Below, in pieces: positions 55,405 to 62,694 of a DNA stretch of 64,000 nucleotides. Under the pieces are notes generated by a model. The model ran no database searches. It was given only the letters and a program-made list of their open reading frames with translations, and was not told the DNA's origin. The first letter of the stretch is position 1, and each line of letters begins with the position of its first letter. Source of the DNA: Labrenzia sp. OB1 (GTDB taxonomy: Bacteria > Pseudomonadota > Alphaproteobacteria > Rhizobiales > Stappiaceae); assembly GCF_001624695.1 (NCBI RefSeq), contig NZ_JSEP01000003.1, forward strand, positions 310,001 through 374,000. Direction: 5' to 3'. The position numbers were made by a program, and so were the translations under genes.

Positions 55405-55773
55405 GACCTGGCGGGCGGTTCGGCAATTTAAGCTACCAAACTGATTTAAATGTCCTATCTCTGTTTGCAGTGCACAGAAGTTGCCGGTGAAAACGAGTTC
55501 CTTCGCAAAATTGAGCGCTTAGGGGTGTGTTTACATAACAAATAGCAGTATTGCGGGCGGCAGCCGGCAAAGCTATCCTGCTGCGATGCAACAGATCGGC
55601 GACCGTCCAATCGGAACGGATTGGTCACCCGGGAGTTGATCTGTTCAAAAGCGTTCGAGCATCCGGCGTTCAATTGATCGCGGGATGCGACGTGAGCTGC
55701 GATAACAGGCAGGCCGTTTTCAAAAATCGCCAATGGGGCTGGCGGCGGCTTAGAACTCAAAGGAGACGCGCCG
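55405..55773. other. Intergenic region between hemW and phaZ
   Basis: These 369 bp contain no convincing gene. An AT-rich patch (55430-55550) may include the phaZ promoter. The hairpin CCAATC-N6-GATTGG lies near 55610-55627. AGGAG close to the end is the phaZ ribosome-binding site. Confidence 0.5.
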
Positions 55774-57369
55774 TTGCCGTTTTATCACCTTTACGAGATG
55801 AACCATGCGGTTATGGCGCCGTTCAGAGCTATGGCCGACATGACCAGGCTCTATTTTCAGAACCCACTCAATCCATTGAGTCACACTGAGTACGGCCGTT
55901 CGGTTGCGGCGGGCTGCGAGGTGATGGAACGCACCACCCGGCGCTACGGCAAGCCGGCATTCGGCATCAAGGAAACGCCGGTCAGCGGCGTGCGTGTTCC
56001 GGTACATGAAAACACCGTCTGGAGCCGGCCGTTCTGCGACCTCATCCATTTCGAACGCGGGGTGACCACGCGGCGCAACGATCCGAAAATCCTGATTGTC
56101 GCGCCGATGTCGGGCCACTACGCGACGCTGTTGCGCGGTACCGTCGAGGCGCTGCTGCCGAATGCCGATGTCTACATCACCGACTGGATCGACGCCCGCA
56201 TGGTTCCGGTCCAGGACGGCAAGTTCGATCTCGATGATTATATCGATTATATCATTTCGATGCTGCACTATCTCGGGCCGGATGCCCATGTGCTCGGCGT
56301 GTGCCAGCCCTCCGTTCCGGTTCTGGCCGCCGTTGCGGTGATGGAGGACCGGGAAGACCCGTATGTTCCTTCAACCATGACACTGATGGGCGGACCGATC
56401 GACACGCGCGTCGCACCGACCGCCGTCAACGATCTCGCGGTTTCCAAGGGCATCGAATGGTTCAAGAACAACGTCATCATGAAGGTGCCCTTCCCGCATC
56501 CGGGCTTCATGCGAGACGTCTATCCGGGCTTCCTGCAGCTTTCCGGGTTCATGAGCATGAACCTGGACAGGCATGTCACCGCGCATCGCGACTTCTTCCA
56601 GCACCTCATCGAAGGGGACGGCGACAGCGCGGAAAAGCACCGTGATTTTTACGACGAATATCTGGCGGTGATGGATCTGACGGCGGAATTCTATCTGCAG
56701 ACCGTCGAATCCGTTTTCATCGACCATTCCCTGCCGAACGGCACCATGACGCATAACGGCCGTCTGGTTGATTGCACAAAGATCCGGCGGACGGCGTTGC
56801 TGACAGTGGAAGGTGAGAAAGACGACATCACAGGCCGTGGCCAGACGAAGGCGGCGATCGATCTTTGCACCAGCCTGCCTGCTGATATGAAAGCGCATTA
56901 CGAGCAGCCGAATGTGGGTCACTACGGCGTCTTCAACGGCTCCCGCTGGCGTGCAGAAATTGCTCCACGGGTGATGGACTTTATCCGCTCCAACCGGGCA
57001 GGTACTGTGAAAAAGACACCGGCCGCGCCGACTGCTGCCAAAAAGCCGGCCACGGCGGCAAACGCCAAAAAAACCGTCAAAAAACCGGTGCTGGCCACGA
57101 AGAAGAAAGCCGCGCCCAAGGGCGGTCCGCTGGAGAAAATCCTGCTCGTCAAGCCGGATGGTGTGGCCGACGATCTGAAAGCGATCAGCGGTGTCGGCCC
57201 GAAGTTGCAATCAGCCCTGAACGAGGCCGGGATCTTCCATTACTGGCAAATCGCCTCGCTGACGTCGGAGCAGATCGACGCGCTCGACAGCAAGCTTGAT
57301 TTTCGCGGCCGCATTGCCCGCGACAGGTGGATCGATCAAGCCCGAGAGTTGTCTGAAAAGGTGAGCTGA
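55774..57369 (+). CDS. phaZ: Intracellular PHB depolymerase with histone-H1-like tail and HhH domain
   Basis: PhaZ mobilises polyhydroxybutyrate granules. Residues 1-408 form the intracellular depolymerase: PFYHLYEMNHAVMAPFRA, the nucleophile Cys177 in VLGVCQPSVPV, an Asp near 350 (VEGEKDDIT) and His383 in VGHYGVFNGSRW. The TTG start is supported by AGGAG nine bases upstream and the family-like N-terminus. Residues 411-452 are a Lys/Ala/Pro-rich tail and 455-531 a helix-hairpin-helix-like domain (DDLKAISGVGPKLQSALNEA). At 531 aa it is about 110 longer than the usual about 420. The extra part may bind DNA. Confidence 0.9.
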   Translation: MPFYHLYEMNHAVMAPFRAMADMTRLYFQNPLNPLSHTEYGRSVAAGCEVMERTTRRYGKPAFGIKETPVSGVRVPVHENTVWSRPFCDLIHFERGVTTRRNDPKILIVAPMSGHYATLLRGTVEALLPNADVYITDWIDARMVPVQDGKFDLDDYIDYIISMLHYLGPDAHVLGVCQPSVPVLAAVAVMEDREDPYVPSTMTLMGGPIDTRVAPTAVNDLAVSKGIEWFKNNVIMKVPFPHPGFMRDVYPGFLQLSGFMSMNLDRHVTAHRDFFQHLIEGDGDSAEKHRDFYDEYLAVMDLTAEFYLQTVESVFIDHSLPNGTMTHNGRLVDCTKIRRTALLTVEGEKDDITGRGQTKAAIDLCTSLPADMKAHYEQPNVGHYGVFNGSRWRAEIAPRVMDFIRSNRAGTVKKTPAAPTAAKKPATAANAKKTVKKPVLATKKKAAPKGGPLEKILLVKPDGVADDLKAISGVGPKLQSALNEAGIFHYWQIASLTSEQIDALDSKLDFRGRIARDRWIDQARELSEKVS

Positions 57370-60426: not shown

Positions 60427-62694
60427 TTATCCGCCGCCGAAGAGATTGCGCAGCAGGTTGAGGGGACCCTTGCGCTCGTTGTTCTCCCCACCGCCGACCG
60501 GTGATGGCGGGATCGGTTCGCTTCCGGATCCGACGGACCGGGACGGCACCGGCTTTTGCGGAACAGCAACGGTTGCCGGCAAGTTGGGAACACCGGGAAG
60601 GTCGGCAACGGGAAGACCCTGATGGGCCACATCCATCACTTCTTTCCAGACACCGGCAGGGAGGCCGCCGCCGGTGGCCTTTTTCGTCGGGGAATTGTTG
60701 TCGTTGCCGAACCAGACTGCGGTGGTAAGGTTGCCCGTATAGCCGATGAACCAGGCATCGCGGAAATCCTGCGTGGTACCGGTCTTTCCGCCGGCGGGCC
60801 GCCCGCTGTCCAGCCGGGCCTTGCGGCCGGTGCCTGTCAGCAGCGTTTCCGAAAGCATCAGGTTCATGTTGCCGACCATCTGACGATCGACCACCCGGCC
60901 GCGGCCGTCACCGGAGCGCGAATAGAGCGTCTCGCCGTCGATGCTTTTGATCCGCCGGATGATATGCGGCAGCACGCCGTAGCCGCCATTCGAGAACGGT
61001 ACATAGGCGGCTGCGATTTCCAGCGGAGTAACCTCGGAGGTTCCCAGCGCCAGGGACAGGTTCCTGTTCATATCCGACTCGATGCCGAGCCGCCGGGCGG
61101 TTTTCGCAACGGTCCCCGCCCCCACTTCATGGGCGAGTTGCACCGCGACCGTGTTCAGCGAGAGGCTCAGCGCGCGGGTAAGCGTTACCGGGCCATAGTG
61201 TTCCTTGGTGTAATTTTTCGGCGACCAGCCGCCGATGGTGATCGGCTGGTCCTGGCGGACCGTCTGCGGGGCCATGCCGGTCTCGAGCGCCGCCAGATAG
61301 ACGAATGGCTTGAAGGCCGAGCCGGGCTGGCGCTTGGCATAGACCGCGCGGTTGAACTGGCTCTTGGAATAGTCGGCGCCACCGACCAGGGCCTTGACGG
61401 CCCCGGCCGTATCCAGCGTGACCACCGCGCCCTGGGTGACGGCATAGGCTTCCCTGTTTTCCTTGAGCGCGGCGCGCAGCGCCTTCTCCGCGGCCTGTTG
61501 CATGACCGGGTCGATGGTGGTGTCGACGACGATGTCGGTTTCTATCGAGCCGATGAAATGCGGCAGGACGTCCATGACCCAGTCAGCGGCGTAGTTCTCG
61601 CTGGCCGTGGTGTAGCGGCGCACGACCTTGGCCGGGGCCGCAATGGCGTTCTTCGCCTCGTCGGAATTGATATAACCTTCCTCGTGCATCGCCGCCAGAA
61701 CGAGCTGGGCGCGGTCTTCGGCAAGATCCGGATTGCGCGCCGGGGAGTACCGGGATGGCGCCTTCAGCAGGCCGGCGATGGTGGCTGCCTCCGCGATTGT
61801 CAGCAAGCGCGCCGATTTCCCGAAATAGCGCCGGGCCGCCGCGTCGACGCCATAGGCGCCCGAACCGAGGTAGACCCGGTTCAGATACATCTCCAGGATT
61901 TCGTCCTTGGAATATTCCGCCTCCAGCCAGAAGGCGAGCACCAGTTCCTGGATCTTCCGCCTCATGGTGCGGTCCGGTTCAAGGAACAGGTTCTTTGCGA
62001 GCTGCTGGGTGAGCGTCGATCCGCCCTGTGACAGCCGCCTTGCCGTCAGATTGGTGTAGACCGCGCGCATCAGGCCAATCGGATCGACACCGAAATGCGA
62101 CCGGAACCGCCGGTCCTCGATCGAGATGACGGCATTCGGCAGGTAAGGCGGCAACTGTTCCAGACGGACCGCTTCACCGCCCGTGTCACCCCGGTTGGCG
62201 ATGAGCTGACCGTTTGCCGCTACGATTTTCACGTTCGGCGGGCGGGCGGGCACCTGCCATTCGGACGTCGGCGGAAGATAGGCGGCGTAATAGCCGACGA
62301 TGCAAACGGCGGCGACAACGCCCCAGATGCCCAGAACCGCGCTCCAGTAGAGGCCGCGTTTGACCAGTCTGCCGAGTGCGGCCGGGATGAAAACGCGGCT
62401 TTTCCGTTTCTGGCTGCGCCGTTTTGCACCGGACCGGCTTCCCTTGCGGGCGCGGGGCGCGCTTTTCGTCTTTGTGGACTTCGGCTTGGTCGGCTTTTTG
62501 GTGGCCGGTCTTTTGGCTGCAGGTTTTTTCGCACCGCCGGATCCGGCGGCTTTGCGGGGCTTTCTCTTGGATGTTGACTTTGCCGCAGGCGCAGCCGGTC
62601 TGTCCTGCGGGCTGAGGCGCAGGTCCAGCAGGCTACTGCCAGAGTCTCCAAATGTCGGTTCAATCCGCGCCTGGCGTTTCGCCCGTTGCGCCAT
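60427..62694 (-). CDS. Class A penicillin-binding protein (PBP1-type)
   Basis: A bifunctional peptidoglycan glycosyltransferase-transpeptidase of 755 aa. A long basic cytoplasmic head rich in Lys, Ala, Pro, Arg and Ser (about 35-105) precedes one TM helix (about 112-135). The glycosyltransferase motifs EDRRFRSHFGVD and GGSTLTQQLAKN follow, then the transpeptidase SxxK in GSAFKP, SLN, and KTGTTQDFRDAW. The C-terminus is Pro/Ser-rich and ends NLLRNLFGGG. Exact PBP1 class (mrcA versus pbpC) is not assigned. The basic head is unusual in composition. It is convergent with the small secreted gene. Confidence 0.95.
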   Translation of the reverse strand: MAQRAKRQARIEPTFGDSGSSLLDLRLSPQDRPAAPAAKSTSKRKPRKAAGSGGAKKPAAKRPATKKPTKPKSTKTKSAPRARKGSRSGAKRRSQKRKSRVFIPAALGRLVKRGLYWSAVLGIWGVVAAVCIVGYYAAYLPPTSEWQVPARPPNVKIVAANGQLIANRGDTGGEAVRLEQLPPYLPNAVISIEDRRFRSHFGVDPIGLMRAVYTNLTARRLSQGGSTLTQQLAKNLFLEPDRTMRRKIQELVLAFWLEAEYSKDEILEMYLNRVYLGSGAYGVDAAARRYFGKSARLLTIAEAATIAGLLKAPSRYSPARNPDLAEDRAQLVLAAMHEEGYINSDEAKNAIAAPAKVVRRYTTASENYAADWVMDVLPHFIGSIETDIVVDTTIDPVMQQAAEKALRAALKENREAYAVTQGAVVTLDTAGAVKALVGGADYSKSQFNRAVYAKRQPGSAFKPFVYLAALETGMAPQTVRQDQPITIGGWSPKNYTKEHYGPVTLTRALSLSLNTVAVQLAHEVGAGTVAKTARRLGIESDMNRNLSLALGTSEVTPLEIAAAYVPFSNGGYGVLPHIIRRIKSIDGETLYSRSGDGRGRVVDRQMVGNMNLMLSETLLTGTGRKARLDSGRPAGGKTGTTQDFRDAWFIGYTGNLTTAVWFGNDNNSPTKKATGGGLPAGVWKEVMDVAHQGLPVADLPGVPNLPATVAVPQKPVPSRSVGSGSEPIPPSPVGGGENNERKGPLNLLRNLFGGG

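Follow-up and report, generated by a model that had tools for sequence, protein, structure and literature searches.

We found that a predicted intracellular PHB depolymerase (PhaZ) of Labrenzia sp. OB1 is extended at its C-terminus by a Lys/Ala/Pro linker followed by a helix-hairpin-helix (HhH) module that is homologous to the C-terminus of the PHB-granule protein PhaH. The fusion, which had been predicted from the DNA alone, was confirmed and is well conserved, and the accompanying interpretation that the tail tethers PHB granules to the nucleoid is, by analogy, partly supported. We tentatively favor, at a little less than even chances, the reading that a mobile alphaproteobacterial HhH module attaches the depolymerase to the nucleoid and perhaps brings the granule along.

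The gene lies in a 64,000-nucleotide stretch of contig NZ_JSEP01000003.1, which is referred to here as the window. It comprises the following features.

55760..55765, + strand: AAGGAG, likely ribosome-binding site, 8 nt upstream of the TTG start (sequence read directly)
55774-57369, + strand: open reading frame of 531 codons plus stop, TTG start (sequence read directly)
55774..56997, + strand: intracellular PHB depolymerase (PhaZ) catalytic region, residues 1-408 (TIGR01849, PF06850)
56302..56304, + strand: C177, presumed catalytic nucleophile (invariant in a 33-row alignment)
56821..56823, + strand: D350, presumed catalytic Asp (invariant in a 33-row alignment)
56920..56922, + strand: H383, presumed catalytic His (invariant in a 33-row alignment)
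57004..57129, + strand: Lys/Ala/Pro linker, residues 411-452, predicted disordered (AlphaFold2, dN/dS, no Pfam match)
57136..57366, + strand: C-terminal HhH module, residues 455-531 (NCBIfam, PDB search, HHH_5, AlphaFold2, dN/dS)
57367..57369, + strand: stop codon (sequence read directly)

The frame, the length of 531 aa and the coordinates of the original prediction agree with the sequence, in which the TTG start is preceded by AAGGAG; scans for promoters/terminators and for tRNAs returned nothing relevant. The NCBIfam model TIGR01849 for PhaZ covers residues 3-406 (2e-196; 652.6 bits against a cut-off of 300.75), and Pfam PF06850 (PHB_depo_C) covers residues 206-407 (1.5e-99). C177, D350, and H383, which we take to be the nucleophile, Asp, and His of the PhaZ catalytic triad, displayed no variation across 33 aligned relatives, and the claim of a PHB depolymerase with an intact Cys/Asp/His triad thus stands. 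In a Foldseek search with the whole protein, PHA synthases were the top matches, and the matches listed were to alpha/beta-hydrolases. Within the enzyme part, AlphaFold2 gave a pLDDT of <50 at residues 261-287 only. Judged by TIGR01849 and the triad, the protein belongs to the PhaZ family and is predicted to hydrolyze the granule polymer.

The Lys/Ala/Pro tail predicted to follow the enzyme was recovered: residues 409-454 contain 12 K, 12 A, and 6 P with a net charge of +11, and AlphaFold2 predicts disorder, with a pLDDT of <50 for linker residues 414-449. The tail had also been called histone-H1-like. Its Lys/Ala/Pro composition fits that name, but a Pfam search with residues 411-452 returned no family up to E 10, and so no histone or H1-like match, and the charge varies among relatives; "histone-H1-like" therefore describes the composition of the linker only. 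Among 66 distinct fused PhaZ proteins, the mean linker net charge is +6 (+13 in the window), with values of ≤0 in 5 and of ≤+2 in 14 of them, and of ≤0 in 11 of the 66 when charge is taken by a 50-residue measure. The linker is predicted to be flexible and is usually basic among fused PhaZ. A chance K/A/P run was considered and rejected, as a K/A/P-rich stretch of 42 residues like that in the linker occurs in only 2 of the 158 window frames (stop-to-stop, ≥150 aa). The only other such stretch in the window is in a class A penicillin-binding protein (Transgly, Transpeptidase; 60427-62694, − strand), whose first 102 residues (62389-62694, − strand) are rich in Lys/Ala/Pro/Arg with a net charge of +29.

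For the module, we built a family profile from 18 modules chosen by hand among those of PhaZ, NuoE, L21, S2, and two small proteins. The positions DDL, GxGP, and GR..R..W..QA are invariant in this 18-row alignment, and the window module matches the 65-aa family module, including these positions. Pfam HHH_5 matched the window protein below the Pfam cut-off, with an E of 0.031 when the whole protein was searched and of 4e-4 when only the 65-aa core was, and matched 18 of the 18 family modules at E ≤ 1 (best, 1.4e-7). Against the PDB, the family profile first matched two close relatives, 8yy9 and 9wqv, the latter being the best PDB match and a chain named in none of the papers searched; next came a designed protein, matched over a short stretch, and then matches, with E from 9e-4 up, to L32e, RadA, DinB-type polymerases, NusA, topoisomerase V, ComEA, S13, and Pol beta. 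Foldseek with the module gave RadA as the top match (probability 0.91), along with NusA, Dpo4, Pol iota, and also homeodomains and other folds, and none of these reached an E of 0.001 or better. Based on the HHH_5, profile, and Foldseek matches, the module family is HhH by sequence, with a fold match that is weak but agrees. HhH relatives of the family bind DNA, RNA, or protein. The net charge of the module is slightly acidic (mean, −2.6). As the original prediction had suggested, the region of residues 411-531 was examined with Pfam and AlphaFold2, which resolved it into a predicted disordered linker without a family and a compact helical domain at 455-531 (pLDDT, 86.5 for the module alone and 80-92 for the module blocks in the full protein). 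These data support that residues 455-531 form the HhH-like module that had been anticipated there.

PhaH of Caulobacter crescentus was reportedly the subject of a study by Salinas et al. in 2023. The PhaH model NF045508 matched the window protein with 2.6e-17 (63.8 bits). Because the score was identical when the 77-residue module was searched by itself, the linker does not contribute to this match. This model matches from position 120 on only, the N-terminus of the window protein is PhaZ, and Pfam identified no phasin family in it. Lacking the phasin domain, the window protein is not a PhaH, and it may work like one. The NCBIfam models for NuoE, L21, and S2 matched the window protein as well as or better than the PhaH model, and the module is therefore not closest to PhaH in particular. 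As described in excerpts of a review, the N-termini of PhaM, PhaF, and PhaH bind granules while their C-termini bind DNA nonspecifically; PhaH contacts DNA via its HhH domain and positions PHB granules, which become disorganized upon deletion of phaH (PMC13052382). An excerpt of a second source words the nucleoid role of PhaH as proposed (PMC12028471).

PhaH resembles the window PhaZ in carrying, on a PHB-granule protein, a C-terminal HhH domain of the same family, but its carrier is a phasin whereas the carrier here is a depolymerase. The nucleoid tethers PhaF (Pseudomonas) and PhaM (Ralstonia), which the original prediction had named as parallels, are likewise granule proteins whose C-terminal part binds DNA, as is predicted here; compared by description only, they have a histone-like domain according to the excerpted review, in contrast to the HhH domain of PhaH (PMC13052382). 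PhaH is a closer precedent for the tethering proposed here. Other PHA enzymes with a proposed DNA-binding C-terminus, likened here by description and not by module homology, are PhaC2 of Cobetia and PhaC of Haloferax mediterranei, which are synthases and not depolymerases (excerpts of PMC8686332 and PMC12028471). The same excerpts relate that the Cobetia paper noted a match to H3TH (COG3743) in PhaC2 of Halomonas O-1 and speculated about nucleoid anchoring (PMC8686332, PMC12028471). A full-text literature search, outside which most subscription journals fall, yielded no PhaZ with such a tail in titles or the beginnings of abstracts, or in the excerpted passages of the hits.

By analogy to PhaH, the HhH module would most likely bind DNA nonspecifically through backbone contacts, helped by the Lys residues of the linker, while the PhaZ catalytic domain would sit on the PHB granule. 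With the module on DNA and the catalytic domain on the granule, the enzyme would stay attached to the nucleoid, perhaps together with the granule that it coats, and in Roseibium and its relatives the tether would belong to the depolymerase and not to a phasin of the PhaH kind. For this PhaZ, we infer from these likenesses that DNA is bound, that granules are tethered, and that their segregation may be affected. In the genome of the window strain, the module was detected in three places, which from their sequences are PhaZ, NuoE, and L21. The same genome has five Phasin_2 matches, four of them over the cut-off, and none coincides with the three module places; the search thus revealed no phasin bearing the module. 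The PhaH model scored over its cut-off in 0 of 397 genomes sampled from the order, 0 of 387 genomes sampled from the class, in which nothing reached 1e-32, and 1 of 14 controls (Caulobacter). Because the model passes only in Caulobacter among the 14 controls, complementarity of PhaH and PhaZ across the class is uninformative as a test.

The PhaZ-module fusion was present in 37 of 37 genomes searched from the same genus (Roseibium/Labrenzia), in one alignment row in 35 of them and as two rows of one open frame in G011 and G020, which excludes a frame or assembly artifact. It was also present in 15 of 15 genomes sampled from sister genera of the family and was scattered through other families of the order. 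From 19 sequences of this genus and its namesakes, 171 pairs were formed; once pairs with a dS that was ≥3, zero, or undefined had been dropped, 160, 103, and 99 of them were usable for enzyme, linker, and module, respectively. The median dN/dS was 0.057 in the enzyme, 0.405 in the linker, and 0.071 in the module. Thus, the module is under purifying selection and is nearly as constrained as the enzyme, while the linker evolves much faster. This difference bears on an explanation in which the tail only regulates or localizes PhaZ on the granule surface, as a basic linker to the phasin/polymer layer, and the HhH fold is incidental. Short Lys/Arg-rich tails also close many, though not all, of the PhaZ proteins that lack the module; a basic end may therefore serve PhaZ itself. 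However, the constraint on the module is far above that on the linker, and we regard this explanation as distinctly improbable.

In a sample of 397 genomes of the order, 314 had a PhaZ at 1e-140, and at least 70 of the 397 (counted by hand) had a PhaZ row reaching residue 526 or beyond. The module was present in 49 and absent from 31 of the best 80 PhaZ loci, which lean to close relatives because only the best rows were kept. We built an enzyme tree of 119 cores, in which identical cores were entered once; 67 of the cores are from proteins with the module and 52 from proteins lacking it. The module occurs in every row of a 31-row clade that is mostly Stappiaceae and in 0 of 33 rows of a clade of Rhizobiaceae, Phyllobacteriaceae, and Ahrensiaceae, and the trait requires at least 16 changes on this tree, at least 5 of them forced. 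We note that in one genome that looked unfused (G060), PhaZ extends to the end of its contig, and another contig opens with a module fragment (L179) that has a PhaZ-like linker. This genome may carry the fusion, yet it was scored as lacking the module in the enzyme tree and was picked in the unfused group, and the fragment is among the 40 "other" carriers described below. As regards descent of the PhaZ module from one named carrier, in a first module tree of 179 rows and 64 columns, the 25 PhaZ modules need 8 changes, of which well-supported branches force at least 2, and this is evidence against one clean PhaZ-module group. After removal of 8 long-branch rows, a single PhaZ group was not rejected (AU p 0.547). 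A search of plasmids with the module identified 8 records, all <60% identical, with a named feature under the match in two (NADH:ubiquinone oxidoreductase and a hypothetical protein).

Based on NCBIfam, the module is also located C-terminally on NuoE, L21, S2 (NF009040, NF008915/6, and NF008966), and the phasin PhaH, and a PDB sequence search added protein-O of the Dinoroseobacter shibae RC-LH1 complex. In NuoE, L21, S2, and protein-O, this homologous module often follows an Ala-rich linker, as part of other enzymes or complexes, and the NuoE and S2 linkers tend to be acidic. Excerpts of the RC-LH1 paper note the shared C-terminal domain of protein-O, call its function obscure, and describe it as flexible and not traceable in the map (PMC12079452). 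A term search of a Paracoccus complex I paper turned up no mention of an HhH domain. Our carrier inventory covered 54 genomes of the order that were hand-picked by PhaZ status, with a module match in 23 of 23 and 29 of 31 of them. Carriers were sorted by sequence motifs, with NCBIfam run on nine. With identical modules counted once, and with most PhaZ places omitted on purpose along with places retrieved earlier, there were 156 distinct carriers: NuoE (33), L21 (31), S2 (25), L19 (10), PhaZ (8), ABC ATPases (5), RND proteins (3), a single PHA-synthase-like protein, and 40 others. In 25 of these 40, a segment of 19 residues with a hydropathy of >2 precedes the module. The module is not a PHB feature because it is also present on NuoE, L21, S2, L19, and membrane-anchored proteins. 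The mean linker charge per 50 aa is −7.1 for S2, −1.6 for NuoE, +4.9 for PhaZ, +2.9 for L21, and +12.3 for L19; as S2 and NuoE linkers are acidic on average, the module needs no basic linker in general.

The inventory contained carriers of several further types. The PHA-synthase-like protein (L237), presumably a DUF3141 protein, matches TIGR01836 at 6e-10, far below the cut-off, and its genome (G105) also encodes a fused PhaZ. Ten small proteins bear the module (L186, L187, L191, L192, L199, L213, L250, L271, L275, and L141), and no phasin match over the cut-off was obtained with NCBIfam for the eight of them that were scanned. One, L213, adjoins a NuoE frame, like protein-O of D. shibae, and several other small carriers are ~2 kb from another module place. 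Sorted by motif, RND-type transporters (L281, L293, and L296, the last two with two modules) and ABC ATPases (L230, L280, L303, L285, and L286) have near-C-terminal modules. L198, L201, and L290 combine an N-terminal hydrophobic segment with two or three HhH modules per chain. In L210, L235, L240, and L265, which by motif and reading are ribosomal L19, an additional acidic tail comes after the module; the NCBIfam matches of the window protein did not include an L19 model.

The main rival of DNA binding is protein-protein docking, in which the module or one partner would recognize a feature shared by NuoE, L21, S2, PhaZ, and others and gather them with one another or at a common factor, without DNA contact. 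The same residues (DDL, GxGP, and GR..R..W..QA) recur in 18 modules across different carriers, most named carriers are ribosome or complex I subunits, and the module is net acidic; its neighbors include the NusA AR2 domain, whose structure was determined with the protein SuhB bound, and the flexible C-terminal domain of protein-O has an obscure role in the excerpted account (PMC12079452). However, the HhH domain of PhaH is described as DNA-binding in the excerpted review (PMC13052382), and no common partner protein emerged from our analysis. Such diverse carriers are as compatible with a docking tag as with a DNA tag, and we consider docking a real possibility, if not a probable one. The module could also bind RNA or ribosomes instead of DNA, which would place PHB mobilization near translation. 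L21, S2, and L19 together account for 66 of the 156 distinct carriers, and L32e and S13 are among the profile neighbors, but NuoE and the membrane-anchored carriers do not fit this alternative and the PhaH precedent is for DNA, making it improbable.

The preferred reading, in which the module holds PhaZ on DNA, draws support from the homology to PhaH, whose HhH domain binds DNA according to the excerpted review (PMC13052382), and from profile and fold neighbors that are largely from nucleic-acid proteins (RadA, DinB polymerases, topoisomerase V, L32e, S13, and Pol beta). The constrained module, the fusion in all 37 and all 15 genomes, a linker that is basic in most fused PhaZ but acidic on average ahead of the S2 and NuoE modules, and the Phasin_2 matches of the genome, none of which is a module place, are consistent with it. 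Against it are the acidic module, the inconstant charge of the linker, the NusA AR2 neighbor, the homeodomains in the Foldseek list, and the many PhaZ without a module, and the NuoE, S2, L21, L19, RND, ABC, and membrane-anchored carriers suggest a wider role. The original DNA-tether reading is thus supported by the homology of the module to the C-terminus of PhaH and qualified by the spread of the module beyond PHB proteins, by a linker that is not always basic, and by the slight acidity of the module.

The wide use of the module is more surprising than the tether reading. In the broadest interpretation, which we consider rather doubtful, the HhH tail would be a general alphaproteobacterial nucleoid address tag that has moved between ribosomal, complex I, membrane-anchored, and PHB-granule proteins; in Stappiaceae and other Hyphomicrobiales, the depolymerase would then be the tether between granule and chromosome, breakdown would take place on the nucleoid, and granules would be shared out with the chromosome. 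The module is treated separately in the excerpted accounts, as obscure in the RC-LH1 paper (PMC12079452) and as DNA-binding in the PHB review (PMC13052382). Taken together, these accounts open the function of a widespread and unexplained tail to direct testing. Should the tail bind DNA, the storage granule would be positioned by one of its enzymes instead of a phasin, and several large assemblies would share a single module as their connection to the chromosome.
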